Shown: piece after piece, positions 37,968 to 43,935 of the stretch | Numbering within the stretch: position 1 is the stretch's first letter | Layout: the number at the start of each line of letters is the position of its first letter | Assembly: GCF_900184265.1 (NCBI RefSeq) | Contig: NZ_FXXA01000002.1 | Location: 2,528,539 to 2,592,538, forward strand | DNA length: 64,000 bases | Source: Eggerthella timonensis | GTDB lineage: Bacteria; Actinomycetota; Coriobacteriia; Coriobacteriales; Eggerthellaceae | Direction of reading: 5' to 3' | Position numbers and translations under genes: made by a program | Notes under the pieces: model-generated | What the model saw: the letters and a program-made list of their open reading frames with translations, nothing else | Databases searched by the model: none | What the model was told of the DNA's origin: nothing

Positions 37968-40172
37968 CTAGCGCAGCGTCCGGACGTCGATCCCATCGTC
38001 GGTCAATTTGCATGAAACATCTCCCTGCTCGTCGGTGCGGCAGATGCGCGCGCCCGCCGCGCCCAGCCGATCGAGCGTCTCGTCGGCGGGATGGCCGTAG
38101 CGGTTGCCCGCGCCCACGCTGACGAGCGCGATGCGCGGCGCGAGGACGGCCGCCTCCTCGTCGTCGAGTGCGTTCTTGGACCCGTGGTGCCCCACCTTGT
38201 AGAGGTCGACGGAGCCCACGAGGCCCGCGTCGATGAGCGCGCGCAGCTGGTCGCGCTCGGCGTCGCCGGTGAACAGCGCGCGCCACTCGGGCGCGCCGTC
38301 TCCGTCGAGGTCGGCGTCGGCGACGAGGCACACGCTGTCGGCGTTGCCGCCCTCGTCGACGAACCGCTCGGGCCACACCACCCGAAGGGCGAAGGCGCCC
38401 GCTTCGAGCACGTCGCCCTGCCGCAGGCCGATCACTCCCCCGTCGCCGGCGAGCGCGCGGGCGTCGGCGACGAGCCCCGCGCATGCCGCGCAGCCGCACG
38501 AGAGCGCATCCTGCGCCACGAGCACGCGCCGCACGTCCACGATGCCCGCGAGCGAGGCGAGCGAGCCCATGTGGTCGTCGTCGCCGTGGGTGATCACCAC
38601 CGCGTCGAGGCGGTACACGCCGTGGCGGGCGAGCGCCTCGCGCAGCTTGCGGTCCTGGTTGCCTGTGTCGATGAGGACGGCCGCCCCGCGGCTGCGCACG
38701 ACGAAGGCGTCGCCCTGGCCCACGTCGAGCATGACGATCTCGTCGCCCGCGAGGCGCGGCGCGACGACGATGGCGGCGATAAGGGCGCAAACAAGCGCGG
38801 TCGCCGCGCCGAACGCGAAGCGGCGGCTCGGGCGCGGCCAGGCGAGCCAGAGCGCCGCCGCGCAGAGTGCCGACGCCGCGAGCGCGGCGACGGGCGGCAC
38901 GGCTGCGGGCACGCTGGCGTAGGGGATTCCCGCAAGCGCCCGCACGACGGCGGTGAGCGCGCCCGCGCCTGCCGAGGCGAGCCCTATCAGAGCCGGCGCC
39001 GCCGGAGGGAGGGCGACGGCGCCGAGCACCGCCGCGAGCCCTCCCGCGCAGACGAGCGGGAACAGCGGCGCGGCCGCCACGTTGGCGAGCGGCGCCACGA
39101 GGGGCAGCTGCGAGAACAGCGACGCGGCGAGCGGCGTGGCCGCGAGGCTCGAGGCGGCCGTCAGCGCGAGCGCCTCGCGCGCGAGGCGGGGCACGCGCGG
39201 CAGGCAGCGCGCGATCCATCCCTGGCAGAGCCCGGCGAACAGCACGATGCCGAGCGTCGAGAGCGCCGACAGGGCGAACGAGACCGACAGCGCCGTGGTC
39301 GGACCCGAGGCGATGCAGCCGACCATGCACACAGCGAGCGCGCTGAGCGCCGCCGGACGGCGGCGCGCCGCGAACGCGAACATGCCGGCGAAGGCCATGA
39401 CGGCGGCGCGCACGGCCGAGGGCGGGGCGGCCGCCAGCACGAGGAAGAACAGCAGAAGCGCGGCCTGCAACGCGATCCCCGCGCGGCGGGAAACGCGCAG
39501 GGCCCGCAGCAGCGCCGAGGCGCACCCGGCGACGATGGACAGGTGGGCGCCCGACACCGCCACGAGATGGGCGAGGCCGCTGGCCTGGTACGCGGCGTAC
39601 GCGTCGCCTTCCTCGAGCCCGCCGCGCCATCCGCACACGAGCGCCGCGAGCACGGCCCCGCCGTCGCCGCACCCCTCTTCGGCGATGAGGTCGATAGCCC
39701 GGTTCCGCAGCCCTGCGAGCATGCCGAGCACATCGCCGCGCTCGCAGGGCTCCACCTCGCGCGCGGTCCCTTCGAGCACCGCTCCCTGCCGCCAGCAGTA
39801 CGCCGCCGACGTCCCCGAAGGCGCGGAGAGCGCGACGTCGGCCTCGAACACGTCGCCGTAGCGCGGGGGCGGCGCCTCCCCATCGAAGCGCAACCGCACG
39901 AGCGCCGCCCCGATGCCGGGCAGGTCGACGCGCGCGAAGCACGTCGCGCCGTAGAGGCCTTCCGAGCCGTCCGCCGCCGCTTCGAAGCGCCATCGCCCCG
40001 ATGCGCCGTCGCCCTGCAGCTGCGCCTCGTGCTGCATCGCCGCGCATCCGCCCGCGCAGGCGACGCCGAGCGACGCGCCCAAAAGCGCCGCCCAGACGAG
40101 CGGCGCCGGCAGCCGCCACAGCGCCAACGCGCAGGCGATGCTCGCAAGGGCGCACCCGCTCACCCCACGCAT
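37968..40172 (-). CDS. comEC: ComEC/Rec2-family DNA uptake channel
   Basis: 734 aa. Several transmembrane helices at the N-terminus, an OB-like DUF4131 segment (50-190), the Competence domain with many helices, and a C-terminal metallo-beta-lactamase domain (THGDDDHMGSL). It transports single-stranded DNA across the membrane. The start ATG 40172 overlaps the end of comEA by 13 nt. Its neighbour ComEA binds DNA, which supports a natural-transformation role; other competence genes are not in the window. Confidence 0.9.
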   Translation of the reverse strand: MRGVSGCALASIACALALWRLPAPLVWAALLGASLGVACAGGCAAMQHEAQLQGDGASGRWRFEAAADGSEGLYGATCFARVDLPGIGAALVRLRFDGEAPPPRYGDVFEADVALSAPSGTSAAYCWRQGAVLEGTAREVEPCERGDVLGMLAGLRNRAIDLIAEEGCGDGGAVLAALVCGWRGGLEEGDAYAAYQASGLAHLVAVSGAHLSIVAGCASALLRALRVSRRAGIALQAALLLFFLVLAAAPPSAVRAAVMAFAGMFAFAARRRPAALSALAVCMVGCIASGPTTALSVSFALSALSTLGIVLFAGLCQGWIARCLPRVPRLAREALALTAASSLAATPLAASLFSQLPLVAPLANVAAAPLFPLVCAGGLAAVLGAVALPPAAPALIGLASAGAGALTAVVRALAGIPYASVPAAVPPVAALAASALCAAALWLAWPRPSRRFAFGAATALVCALIAAIVVAPRLAGDEIVMLDVGQGDAFVVRSRGAAVLIDTGNQDRKLREALARHGVYRLDAVVITHGDDDHMGSLASLAGIVDVRRVLVAQDALSCGCAACAGLVADARALAGDGGVIGLRQGDVLEAGAFALRVVWPERFVDEGGNADSVCLVADADLDGDGAPEWRALFTGDAERDQLRALIDAGLVGSVDLYKVGHHGSKNALDDEEAAVLAPRIALVSVGAGNRYGHPADETLDRLGAAGARICRTDEQGDVSCKLTDDGIDVRTLR

Positions 40173-40834
40173 ACGAGATCGGCCAGATCGGCGAACTTCT
40201 TGTCCCCGATGCCGGAAACGCGCTTGAGATCCTCCACCGTGCGGAAGGGGCCGTTCGCCTCGCGGTCGGCCACGATCTTCTCCGCCGTCGACGGCCCCAC
40301 GCCCGGCAGCGCGTCGAGCTCCGAGGCCGTGGCCCGGTTGAGGTTCACCTTCCCTCCGACCGAGGACGCGCCCTCCCCGCCGTCTGACGCGCCCGCAGCC
40401 GATCCCGCCGCAGCGGCGCCCGCCTCCTCCTGCGTCGGCACGACGATCTGCTCGCCGTCGACAAGCACCCGCGCAAGGTTGAGCCCGTCGCGCGCCGCGC
40501 CCTCGGCGAACCCGCCCGCCTCGTCGATCGCATCCTGCACGCGCGACCCCTCGTCGAGCTCGCGCACGCCCGGATCGGCGACCGCGCCGCCGACGTGCAC
40601 GACGATCGTCGGCGCAGGCGCGGGAGCCTCCTCTTCCGCATCGTCCTCGGTCGAAAGCGCGCCCTCCTCGCGTGCGAGCGAGAACCCGTCCGCCGTCCCC
40701 GCCTTGATGAGCGCACCGCCCGCCGCGACGAGCACGATCGCCGCGAGCGCCGTCACGCCCACGAGCACCGGCAAGCGCACGCCGCTCAAATGCGCCTTCG
40801 CCCGCCACGATTCCGCCTGGTCCACGAATCCCAT
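40160..40834 (-). CDS. comEA: ComEA, membrane DNA-binding protein
   Basis: 224 aa: N-terminal transmembrane segment (residues 19-40), SLBB domain (VVHVGGAV), Ala/Ser-rich linker and a C-terminal helix-hairpin-helix pair (LNRATASELDALPGVGPSTAEKI). It is the receptor for incoming DNA. ATG 40834 has GAGGGGG at good spacing; a GTG 42 nt upstream (40876) is an alternative with a closer AAAGGG. Confidence 0.88.
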   Translation of the reverse strand: MGFVDQAESWRAKAHLSGVRLPVLVGVTALAAIVLVAAGGALIKAGTADGFSLAREEGALSTEDDAEEEAPAPAPTIVVHVGGAVADPGVRELDEGSRVQDAIDEAGGFAEGAARDGLNLARVLVDGEQIVVPTQEEAGAAAAGSAAGASDGGEGASSVGGKVNLNRATASELDALPGVGPSTAEKIVADREANGPFRTVEDLKRVSGIGDKKFADLADLVCVG

Positions 40835-41114
40835 GCCGCCCCCTCGTATCGCCGTTGCCGCCTCGTCCTTCCGCACCCGCCCTTTTATGATAGCGAGCCG
40901 GTCTCACGCGGCGATGGCGCAGATCCAGCGAAACGAGCCCCGTTTTCCAGCGCGCCTTCCACGCGTTTCCAGCGCCGATTCCATGCGCCGTCGATGGCGA
41001 TCCGACGCGGTTTCCACGCGCCGTGCCGACGGATCTCCCGCGAATGCGACGCCGCGGCGAGCCCCGCATCATCCCTGCCGAATCACCTGCTGCGTACCGC
41101 AGAAACAGAACGGA

Positions 41115-41130
41115 TGTTTCATGTGAAACA
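41115..41130. other. parS-like site 1 (one mismatch)
   Basis: TGTTTCATGTGAAACA against TGTTTCACGTGAAACA; the palindrome extends to CGGA...TCCG on both sides (41111-41134). parS is the binding site of the chromosome partition protein ParB. Confidence 0.85.
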
Positions 41131-41366
41131 TCCGGGCCGACAAGGGCTTCGCTCCGGCATTCCGCCGCAGCGGGCTTCCGCTTCGCATGAAAGCCGGGAG
41201 CGAAACGCCGCCTCTCCCCGGTGCCCGCCCGGCCGCGAAGCTGCGGCGTCGTCCTTGTGCCTCGTGCCCGTCGGAGCGCTGGACGAACGCAAACGGCGGG
41301 GAACGGCCGACGGCGAAAGGAGTTCTTGCATCCGGCCGCATGCGCCTGAGAGATTACCCGAACAGG

Positions 41367-41382
41367 TGTTTCACGTGAAACA
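41367..41382. other. parS-like site 2 (perfect consensus)
   Basis: TGTTTCACGTGAAACA exactly, 252 bp from site 1. Known parS sites cluster near the replication origin, though no parAB or dnaA is in this window. Confidence 0.9.
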
Positions 41383-41403
41383 TCCGGAGCGGGACGCGAA
41401 AAG

Positions 41404-41434
41404 GCGGCGCCCCGAGGAATACCCGGGGCGCCGC
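41404..41434 (-). terminator. thiI terminator
   Basis: 11-bp stem GCGGCGCCCCG/CGGGGCGCCGC with a 9-nt loop, followed on the minus strand by CTTTTCGCG. It lies 29 nt past the thiI stop. Confidence 0.8.
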
Positions 41435-41462
41435 GCTCGCGAATGCATGATGTCCGAAACGC

Positions 41463-42680
41463 TTACGAGGCGCGCTTCTTCTTCGGCTTGTAGGCAGGGC
41501 ACGCGTAATCGCGCACCTCGGCCGCGTCGGCGATCTCGACCACCCATCGCTCGATGGGCAGCGGAGATTCGGCCTCGAGCACGTCCGGCAGCTTCGCGTG
41601 CGTCTCGGGGCTGCGCGGCATGAACAGCGTGCAGCAGTCGGGCGCGTCCTGCGACGAGATCTCGAAGGAGCCCAGGCGCTCGGCCTCCGCGATGATCTCC
41701 AGCTTGTCGGTGCCGATGAGCGGCCGGAAGACGGGCATGTCCACCGCCGCGTCGGTGCACCGGATGTTGTCGAGCGTCTGCGAGGCCACCTGCCCCAGGC
41801 TCTCGCCCGTCACGAGCGCCCCGGCGCGCTCGCGCCGCCCCAGCTCCTCGGCCACCTTGAACATGAGGCGGCGGTACATGATGACGCGCAGCTCGGGCGG
41901 CACGGTCAGCGCGATCTCGCGCTGGTAGTCGCCGAACGGCACCGTGTAGACGCGCGCGATGCAACCCGTGCGCTCCAGCACCTGCGCGATGTCGTCAACG
42001 AGGTACTCGCTGGCGTCGGAGGTCTGCGGACGGCCCGAGAAGTGCACGCCGATGCACACCGCGCCGCGCCGTGCGAGCTTCCAGGTGGCCACCGGCGAAT
42101 CGATGCCCGACGACAGCAGGCACATCACGATCCCCGAGCTGCCCACCGGCAGGCCGCCCACGCCCGGCAGCGAGCGCGCGTACACGTAGGCCGCGTTCTG
42201 CACCACCTCGACGCCCACGGTCAGGTCGGGCCTCTTCATTTTCACGGCCTTGTCCGGATACGCCGCGCACAGCGCCGAGCCGATGATCTGGTTCATGTCC
42301 ATCGAACCCGTGGCGAAATCGGTGTGGTTGCGCCGCGCCGCCACCTTGAACGTGTCGAACGGGCCTGCCTCGCCCATGGCGGCGAGCGCCGCCTCCGTCA
42401 TGGCGTCGAGGTCGCGCTCGCACTTGAACCCGCACGACACGCGCGCCACGCCCGGGACCTTGCCGATGACGTCGGCCGCCTCCTTCGCCGTCTCCCAATC
42501 GGTGCCCTCGCGCAAGAACACGCACAGACGGCCCGCGATGCGGTGGATCGTGACCACGGGGAACCGGCCCAGCAGCGCCTCGAGGTTCTTGAGCAGCCTC
42601 ATCTCGAACGCGGAGCGGTTGTGGCCCTTGAGCCCGATCTCGTGGTAGTGGACCAGGCAGATGCGTTGGAATTCAGTCAT
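41463..42680 (-). CDS. thiI: ThiI, tRNA 4-thiouridine/thiazole sulfurtransferase
   Basis: 405 aa: N-terminal ferredoxin-like/THUMP domain, then the PP-loop ATP pyrophosphatase. The P-loop reads LLSSGIDSP, where SGG is usual. It has no C-terminal rhodanese domain, like many Gram-positive ThiI. The protein adds sulfur to tRNA U8 and may support thiamine thiazole. It lies about 100 nt after rpoZ with a hairpin between. Confidence 0.92.
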   Translation of the reverse strand: MTEFQRICLVHYHEIGLKGHNRSAFEMRLLKNLEALLGRFPVVTIHRIAGRLCVFLREGTDWETAKEAADVIGKVPGVARVSCGFKCERDLDAMTEAALAAMGEAGPFDTFKVAARRNHTDFATGSMDMNQIIGSALCAAYPDKAVKMKRPDLTVGVEVVQNAAYVYARSLPGVGGLPVGSSGIVMCLLSSGIDSPVATWKLARRGAVCIGVHFSGRPQTSDASEYLVDDIAQVLERTGCIARVYTVPFGDYQREIALTVPPELRVIMYRRLMFKVAEELGRRERAGALVTGESLGQVASQTLDNIRCTDAAVDMPVFRPLIGTDKLEIIAEAERLGSFEISSQDAPDCCTLFMPRSPETHAKLPDVLEAESPLPIERWVVEIADAAEVRDYACPAYKPKKKRAS

Positions 42681-42715
42681 GGACGACCTTGTCTTTCAGG
42701 GTGCGGACACAGCAA

Positions 42716-42742
42716 AGCCGCGCCGGGGTTCCCAGCGCGGCT
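42716..42742 (-). terminator. Hairpin between rpoZ and thiI
   Basis: 8-bp stem AGCCGCGC/GCGCGGCT, 11-nt loop, followed on the minus strand by TTTGCTG. It could reduce but not stop thiI transcription. Confidence 0.5.
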
Positions 42743-42778
42743 GAATGACGCGATTCCGGCCGATCGGCGAGATACGGC

Positions 42779-43039
42779 CTAGTGGTAGTTGACGTCGATG
42801 GAATTCGGATCGTACGACACCTCGCCGCGAGCGACCTCGTTGAAGGCGAGCGACAGCGGCTTCTTGTCGGCGGCGCGGGCGATCTCGACCGCCGTCTGCA
42901 GCTGGATGGCGCGATCGCGCTGGCCGCGCATCATGTCGTTGATGTCGTGCGCGCGCTTCGAAGCGAGAGCGCACAGCAGGAAGCGGTCGTTGTCGGTCTC
43001 GTTCAGCAGGACGTCGATCTTCGGTTCGATAATGCTCAT
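42779..43039 (-). CDS. rpoZ: RNA polymerase omega subunit
   Basis: 86 aa. The core omega motif is FLLCALASKRAHDINDMM, then KPLSLAFNEVARGEV. It promotes assembly of the beta' subunit. The gene follows gmk by 7 nt, the conserved order. Confidence 0.93.
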   Translation of the reverse strand: MSIIEPKIDVLLNETDNDRFLLCALASKRAHDINDMMRGQRDRAIQLQTAVEIARAADKKPLSLAFNEVARGEVSYDPNSIDVNYH

Positions 43040-43046
43040 ATGCGTG

Positions 43047-43619
43047 TTAACCTCGTATTTTCTCGGCTTGCTCGTTGACGTAGCCCACCAACGCGTTGAC
43101 GGCTTCGTCCAAATCGTCGTTTACCAGCCGTATATCATACTCCATTTTGCGGGAAAGCTCCACCCGCGCCGTTTCCATGCGAGTCGCGACGGCCTCGTCG
43201 CTCTCGGTCCCGCGTCCGCGCAGACGCGCTTCGAGCACGTCGAGCGAAGGCGGTTCGATGAACACGAGGTGCGCCGCCGGAAACTTGTCGCGCACCTGGA
43301 ACCCTCCCTGCACGTCGATCTCCAGGATGACCTGATCGCCGCGCGCGATGTGCTCCTCGACGGTGGCGCGGGGCGTGCCGTAACGGTTCCCCCCGTACGT
43401 CGCCCACTCCAGCAGGCCGTCGCTCGCGACGAGCTGCTGGAATTCCTCGGGAGACGCGAAGCGGTAGTGGACGCCGTCCACCTCGCCCTCGCGCGGCTTG
43501 CGGGTGGTCACCGACATAGACACCCATGCATCGGGGACCTCCTGCACAAGTCGGGCCACCAGCGTGCCCTTGCCGGCACCCGATGGCCCTGAGATGACGA
43601 ACAGATTGCCGTGGCGCAT
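43047..43619 (-). CDS. gmk: Guanylate kinase
   Basis: 190 aa. P-loop SGPSGAGKGTLV, GMP-binding TTRKPREGEVDGVHY, and ARVELSRKMEYD later. It makes GDP from GMP. It starts 7 nt past mihF. Confidence 0.96.
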   Translation of the reverse strand: MRHGNLFVISGPSGAGKGTLVARLVQEVPDAWVSMSVTTRKPREGEVDGVHYRFASPEEFQQLVASDGLLEWATYGGNRYGTPRATVEEHIARGDQVILEIDVQGGFQVRDKFPAAHLVFIEPPSLDVLEARLRGRGTESDEAVATRMETARVELSRKMEYDIRLVNDDLDEAVNALVGYVNEQAEKIRG

Positions 43620-43626
43620 GGAGCGA

Positions 43627-43935
43627 TTAGCCCAAGCGCTCCAGCAGGGCGGTCTGCTGGCGCTCGCCCAAACCGCGCAGGCGGCGGCTCTCGGCGATCT
43701 GGAGCTCCTTCATGATCTTCTCAGCCTTGGCCTTGCCGTAGCCGGGAAGCGTCTCGATGAGGGTGGAAACCTTCATGCGGCCCACAACCGGGTCGTTCTT
43801 CATTCCAAGAACCTTCTCGAGCGTGAGCTTGCCGGACTTCAGATCGTCGCGAACCTCGGCGCGCTTGATGCGGGCCGCCTTCGCCTTTTCCAAAGCCGCC
43901 TGACGCTCTTCAGGGCTGAGTTGAGGAATAGCCAT
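43627..43935 (-). CDS. mihF: Actinobacterial integration host factor (mIHF)
   Basis: 102 aa. Basic N-terminal helix (QAALEKAKAARIKRAEVRDDLKSG type) and a helix-two-turn-helix H2TH-like fold with TLPGYGKAKAEKIM. Nucleoid-binding and needed for phage integration in mycobacteria. This family marks actinobacteria. GAGAGAACACG precedes the ATG. It is the first gene of mihF-gmk-rpoZ. Confidence 0.93.
   Translation of the reverse strand: MAIPQLSPEERQAALEKAKAARIKRAEVRDDLKSGKLTLEKVLGMKNDPVVGRMKVSTLIETLPGYGKAKAEKIMKELQIAESRRLRGLGERQQTALLERLG

Follow-up and report, generated by a model that had tools for sequence, protein, structure and literature searches.

Clustering close to the replication origin is commonly held to be a requirement of bacterial centromeres. 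Two parS-like sites sharing one intergenic gap on the terminus side of an Eggerthella chromosome raise the question of what they are and what reads them. The window, i.e. the whole 64-kb stretch of DNA that was analysed (C2:2528539-2592538 of a 3,916,897-bp genome in two contigs), contained only two matches to parS at up to three mismatches. These are the perfect 16-bp palindrome TGTTTCACGTGAAACA at 41367..41382 and a copy with one mismatch, TGTTTCATGTGAAACA, at 41115..41130, in which the central CpG is replaced by TpG; both were found by pattern match and their starts are 252 bp apart. In 100 shuffles of the window the mean number of matches was 0.04 and the maximum 1. According to the gene caller, both sites lie in a gene-free gap of 628 bp (40835..41462), flanked downstream by a comEA-like gene (40160..40834, minus strand) and on the other side by thiI (41463..42680, minus strand, 405 aa), gene names being those of the preliminary description of this DNA. 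The purpose-written gene caller found no gene between comEA and thiI, and an Rfam search at E ≤ 1 over positions 40000-43700 gave no match, so that no RNA element is placed in the gap. The pair of a perfect and a one-mismatch site, their spacing and their gene-free surroundings were thus confirmed as described previously.

The palindrome is abundant in the rest of the genome. At up to one mismatch the perfect palindrome gave 147 matches genome-wide, and the pattern TGTTTCAYGTGAAACA at up to two mismatches gave 161 forward and 162 reverse matches in the whole genome, the reversed-pattern control being 0 in both searches; the 16-bp palindrome TGTTTCACGTGAAACA characteristic of chromosomal parS is accordingly present far above chance. 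With ~150 such sites in the genome, the window pair belongs to a set distributed over the whole chromosome, and the earlier suggestion that it forms a singular ParB loading centre could not be upheld.

We then placed the sites along the chromosome. GC skew, computed from a sample of 1.664 Mb (42% of the genome, with the origin region oversampled), changes sign at ~480-540 kb, beside parB and the densest parS cluster, and again at ~2.45 Mb. At least 115 perfect sites could be located, chiefly those with a right-flank TY beyond ~1.31 Mb and as lower bounds beyond 2.97 Mb; with these restrictions their density was 325 per Mb at distances of up to 20 kb from the origin; it then dropped to 81, 50 and 40, and to 16-18 per Mb between 600 kb and the terminus. 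In the sample alone, the same distance bins contained 450, 106, 60, 40, 16, 34 and 12 sites per Mb; these bins are uneven, and the fall in density is evident close to the origin but irregular at greater distances. Of the 115 located perfect sites, 46 are at most 300 kb and 70 at most 600 kb away from the origin, and the others reach the terminus. Hence the sites are not confined to the origin domain, though their density peaks there. Five perfect sites are packed into 8 kb at the skew terminus (C2:2435590-2443457), between open frames which, judged by eye, resemble a flavoprotein, a P-type ATPase and DinB, and the window pair (C2:2569653 and 2569905) lies about 0.12 Mb beyond that terminus. 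The preliminary description had noted that parS usually lie near the origin, and the position of the pair far from it is indeed unusual. The genome-wide count and origin mapping that it proposed had a divided outcome: the many scattered copies speak against its interpretation, while the bias towards the origin and the presence of parB do not.

Altogether 73 sampled sites at up to two mismatches were analysed, sites with three mismatches (4 of 77) being excluded. Intergenic placement, previously considered remarkable, is the rule here, as 62 of the 73 sites are intergenic according to a home-made gene caller (84% coding density). The gaps that hold sites were tandem in 41 cases, divergent in 14 and convergent in 6, as expected from intergenic length. 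A role as promoter operator was rejected, the gap contexts of the sites tracking intergenic length.

Two local arrangements were observed in addition. Nine parS pairs spaced by 48 or 49 bp were present in two genomes, with 48-bp spacing at C2:426158, 554092 and 885528 in the own genome and with either spacing at C1:15814, 46950, 89820, 190833, 316842 and 3614410 in the same-genus comparison genome G070; most have the dyad-like CGCANTGNNNTGCGAYA or its reverse in between, and the pair is a recurrent composite module. Several sites also share a leader that begins at parS and reads roughly YYGTTCTGAYTCCCCGTTCGGCGCATAAC, some with a further conserved stretch near ATGGCAAGTTTTCACCGGATTCGGAC (C2:142837, 614586, 857509, 1088751 on the minus strand, 1938191 and 3686371).

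The expansion was followed through the family and the phylum. ThiI identities of 93% to E. sinensis and of 86-87% to Paraeggerthella, Enteroscipio and Gordonibacter place the genome in Eggerthella. Three genomes of the same genus contained 113, 155 and 157 sites at up to one mismatch, with no match of the reversed control in any of them. Among 119 family genomes, the own one included, 29 had at least 20 sites and the remaining 90 had 0-17; Adlercreutzia hattorii (G101, 100% identical ThiI), for example, had 5. When 296 genomes were drawn from the whole phylum (completeness of 90% or more requested), the maximum outside the family was 33 sites, in an 8.6-Mb genome. Further genomes were named via 100% identical ThiI as Gordonibacter pamelaeae (G111), Raoultibacter timonensis (G074) and E. 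sinensis (G031). In G058, whose ThiI is identical to that of Adlercreutzia murintestinalis, four parS follow in a row with ~76 bp spacing (G058:C1:98884-99127).

The genome encodes a fitting candidate reader amid the sites. The canonical ParB (C2:532968-533498; TIGR00180, E=1.5e-55) lies within the densest parS cluster at C2:529-542 kb, and its 177-aa core has Spo0J (1vz0) as best match among solved structures (E=1.7e-51). Four residue positions separate ParB from Noc according to an excerpt of PMC7383237; mapped by eye from the conserved N178 and R204, they are R, A, E and G in this protein, i.e. the RXXG type of parS readers and not the QKKR of Noc. By their sequence the window sites are indeed parS, as their earlier designation as parS-like implied, and the encoded ParB has the specificity residues to match. 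Four weaker ParB-type matches occur in the own genome at C2:494953, 501638, 1411649 and 3709967; a parS at C2:503188 is close to the first two. In four genomes with 115-133 sites (G003, G004, G050 and G023) a single TIGR00180 match each was found at E ≤ 1e-10. One canonical parS-type ParB would thus suffice as reader of the sites. ScpA was found in each of the 85 good-quality genomes drawn, and in G044 ParA is adjacent to its ParB. ParB changes peculiar to the expanded lineages were rejected as an explanation: when 6 expanded ParBs were aligned with 23 others, leaving out 2 intermediates and 1 ParA sequence, a loose rule was passed by five columns, of which one falls in the HTH (M before SKGR), and by design of the rule no column was exclusive of all others.

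A second motif accompanies the distal sites. It starts directly at the 16-mer, reads outward T-Y-Y-G-T-(T>A>G)-C-G and is mostly one-sided; a site was called tailed when it had G at +4, T at +5 and C at +7. In the own genome (G000) 2 of 18 sites less than 20 kb from the origin were tailed, 12 of 24 at 20-300 kb and 26 of 31 beyond, including all five terminus sites. In G070 the corresponding values were 1 of 26, 37 of 62 and 12 of 15, and in G003 14 of 22 distal sites, fetched by a right-flank TC pattern, carried the tail; at random intergenic positions 3% of sites would be expected to do so. The motif is phased: among 264 distal flanks GT[TAG]C was located 96 times at exactly +4 and at most 8 times at any other offset up to 40. 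The third base of this core was T in 66%, A in 21% and G in 14%. Beyond +8 little information was left on the tail side, where only a weak T at +11 stands out, and on the other side little beyond ~+4. Two-sided tails exist, e.g. in Raoultibacter, nonetheless they were fewer than independent draws predict (4 vs 7.9 and 5 vs 9.3, p ~0.024 each). With respect to the direction of the tail, scored in a looser GTTC form, no rule was detected relative to the replication fork (14:14) or to transcription (10:8), and a directional KOPS-like element was rejected by these splits.

On sequence grounds, the parS of this genome fall into two classes: bare sites, which crowd around parB and the origin, and dispersed ones with a phased, mostly one-sided tail. 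Across the family, tails occur almost exclusively in lineages in which the sites have expanded. As tallied by hand over the 119 genomes, the tailed parS TGTTTCACGTGAAACATYYGTNC gave 824 matches in the 29 genomes with at least 20 sites, compared with 7 for a scrambled tail, and 28 of these 29 genomes had some match; in the 90 genomes with fewer than 20 sites it gave 13 matches (in 4 genomes) vs 12 for the scrambled tail. Many sites with few tails were counted in G057 (35 sites, 0 tails), G016 (32, 3), G058 (57, 2), G086 (23, 1) and G089 (82, 3), and tail and expansion are therefore not strictly coupled. The sites of G058 and its genus mates G016 and G086, almost all of them without tails, are perhaps a separate expansion. 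Two viral contigs of IMG/VR (L329 and L330) contain one tailed parS each, in a search from which records near the own genome may be absent.

We next asked if the positions of the sites are kept in G070 (3,632,260 bp), in which the 0.8 Mb compared contained 103 sites, 100 of them within 600 kb around the origin. For 30 of the 73 sampled own sites there was no syntenic interval in the compared part of G070, and the 43 usable sites span C2:285294-896739, within ~0.36 Mb of the origin. The syntenic interval in G070 held a site for 41 of these 43, vs 6 of 120 site-free control gaps, which were intergenic, syntenic, at least 60 bp long and from the same region (Fisher p ~1e-29). The exact 16-mer was kept at 24 of 36 intergenic sites vs 474 of 5666 neighbouring intergenic 16-mers, and at up to two mismatches at 33 of 36 vs 1123 of 5666. 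At the terminus, two of the three testable own sites (2435590 and 2439430) had a counterpart in G070 that lies between the same anchors and is tailed on the same side, that of 2439430 carrying one mismatch; for the third (2437689), no G070 counterpart was found between the same anchors. By synteny, then, sites are positionally conserved in a second species near the origin, as are two of the three testable ones at the terminus. Tails were compared in 33 site pairs, taken from intervals with equal site numbers and paired by order, so that single pairs may be wrong. For 8 of 9 matched distal tailed sites of the own genome the tail was on the same side, one being flipped. Only the G070 member was tailed in three distal pairs; near the origin, two pairs were tailed in the own genome only and one in G070 only.

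How does the window pair fit into this picture? Both of its sites are tailed on the comEA side. The tail of the perfect site (41359..41366, minus strand) reads CCTGTTCG outward, with G at +4, T at +5, C at +7 and G at +8, and with C instead of the usual T at +1; that of the one-mismatch site (41107..41114, minus strand) reads TCCGTTCT. Using thiI as anchor for orthologous gaps, we inspected its flanks (up to 1.5 kb per side) in 28 other genomes, in one of which (G063) just ~0.2 kb downstream of thiI was covered, and found the pair only in G093 (ThiI 97%). There, the same gap holds two perfect parS 194 bp apart, again tailed on the comEA side, and the intervening DNA has diverged. G070 and G031, of the same genus, have the thiI gap without the pair. 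Among 80 named thiI loci, some of which end at contig edges, no parS was located in a comEA-thiI-type gap; the sole site found was a perfect parS upstream of thiI in Raoultibacter timonensis (L144, 3387-3402) with two-sided tails, GAACAGA TGTTTCACGTGAAACA TCTGTTC. The relevance that had been attached to the neighbouring genes thiI, rpoZ, gmk and mihF found no support. With G093 as the only one of the 28 other genomes to share it, the window pair would have joined the tailed class recently, as a member on the terminus side.

We consider it probable that the window sites belong to a chromosome-wide set of ~150 functional parS that is read by the single canonical ParB of Eggerthella. Could the sites instead owe their spread to a mobile or selfish repeat of intergenic DNA (MITE- or REP-like) which happens to contain parS and has no function distally? 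The lineage-specific expansion and the intergenic bias would fit, as would the nine 48/49-bp pairs in two genomes, the short leader common to several sites, the row of sites 76 bp apart in G058 and the fact that G000 and G093 alone have gained the window pair. Copies of such a repeat should be alike beyond the core, and apart from a few related leaders they are not: the 150-bp flanks were no more similar to each other than random intergenic DNA (17 similar pairs vs 4 to 41 in ten control sets), little sequence information extends past +8 on the tail side or ~+4 on the other, and positions are kept across species while flanks diverge. We therefore regard a repeat as improbable. That the distal 16-mer is the operator of another regulator, its identity with parS being incidental, is in line with the intergenic location of the distal sites and with their own added motif, yet the same perfect 16-mer forms most of the cluster around parB, it fits the specificity residues of ParB, and there is no orientation rule relative to genes, which makes this reading very improbable. 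A Noc-like ParB paralogue that uses the dispersed sites for nucleoid occlusion seems more remote still. Noc sites in B. subtilis are likewise dispersed and the own genome has the four further ParB-type matches; against this, several expanded genomes have a single ParB match at E ≤ 1e-10, the RXXG residues of the own ParB and the sites themselves are of parS and not of Noc type, and the terminus, which Noc sites avoid, holds the five perfect sites at C2:2435590-2443457 and the window pair.

The tail itself allows a further reading, in which the dispersed sites are composite operators: ParB would compete there with LexA or a repressor like it, so that DNA damage would gate ParB loading along the chromosome. 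On the other strand, tail and adjacent parS half read CGNACRRATGTTTC, which agrees in spacing and at 13 of 14 positions with the Gram-positive LexA consensus CGAACRNRYGTTYC as quoted in an excerpt of PMC2248561, and the perfect site of the window reads CGAACAGGTGTTTC, a full match. In 1.66 Mb of the genome 22 of 23 matches to CGAACRNRYGTTYC sit on parS or a GTTTCACG half, a coincidence that is partly built in because the parS half (GTTTC) itself makes half the match. A LexA-like open frame, found by motif pattern at C2:2518748, has two GAACN4GTTC boxes at its start, GAACCTTTGTTC and GAACAAAGGTTC, although their spacers (CTTT, AAAG) differ from that of the tailed sites. A LexA half-site is expected to be tighter than the third tail base is, the parS half gives GTTT and not GTTC, and the sites show no preference for promoter-type gaps; we thus hold such composite operators to be unlikely. 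At C2:3577036 a clean CGAACATCGGTTCG box lies in an intergenic region and is a candidate true LexA site. A third contact of ParB, or some other partner, is as possible a reader of the tail as LexA. In a broader form, Eggerthellaceae might possess a bipartite network from origin to terminus, with parS in register with a second half-site. The places at which ParB clamps, and through them SMC, are loaded would then be chosen by a second regulator, possibly LexA or LexA-like. This form is tentative and we would rather doubt it; if true, a cue such as DNA damage would turn centromere activity on the arms on or off.

Returning to the set of functional parS read by one ParB, the bare origin sites would do the ordinary segregation. 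ParB-CTP clamps would presumably load at all sites, not just at the origin, and ParB would therefore act along both arms to the terminus; SMC-ScpAB may follow ParB along the arms, if recruited as in other bacteria. The tail may offer a further contact to a protein, either ParB itself or a partner, and in this way mark the dispersed sites off from the origin-segregating ones, and its reader could set when or on which side clamps leave, e.g. by limiting or directing one-sided release. No rule of tail direction was detected, so such a directing role is so far without support. That distal sites are occupied by ParB, load clamps and recruit SMC is what we infer from the sequences. A lineage with ~150 sites, some of them at the terminus, and family relatives with 2-10 constitute a ready-made natural comparison, E. 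lenta is culturable, and the fixed tail offers a concrete handle on a second reader.

Among the open-access titles listed as matches, none reported a chromosome-wide, two-class set of tailed parS, and none had parS or ParB of Eggerthella as its subject. The excerpt of PMC7333895 puts the upper end of parS numbers at 20-23, located near the origin, and poses the variation in numbers as a question, and that of PMC8357415 restricts scattered parS to few lineages. In Caulobacter, as far as the excerpt of PMC5815017 goes, a second parS cluster was best tolerated within ~500 kb around the native one, and ectopic parS were strongly disfavoured mid-arm and tolerated to some degree near the terminus. 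The mid-arm result means that 150 active sites need explanation; given these published limits, the distal sites may be weak or gated, or the lineage may tolerate what others do not.

Four known systems invite comparison. The heptamer half-parS of Pseudomonas aeruginosa likewise provide hundreds of ParB sites beyond the origin parS, according to an excerpt of PMC7022226, whereas the sites described here are full palindromes and positionally conserved near the origin. The Gram-positive LexA (DinR) box CGAACRNRYGTTYC resembles the tail plus adjacent parS half in spacing and at most positions; unlike that box, the tail has a loose third base, its fixed partner half belongs to parS, and there is no tie to promoter gaps. 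Noc sites of Firmicutes also are many dispersed copies of a ParB-family palindrome, but here the palindrome and the specificity residues are different, a second ParB is not needed and the terminus is not excluded. The closest likeness is with chromosomal parS/ParABS as known from B. subtilis, Caulobacter and Streptomyces, with which Eggerthella shares the 16-bp palindrome, the type of ParB, an encoded ScpA and a dense cluster at parB and the origin. It differs in having ~150 sites, compared with the 20-23 near the origin mentioned above, in sites that reach and cluster at the terminus, and in the phased tail of the distal ones. A system otherwise restricted to the replication origin seems to exist here in a form that spans the chromosome.
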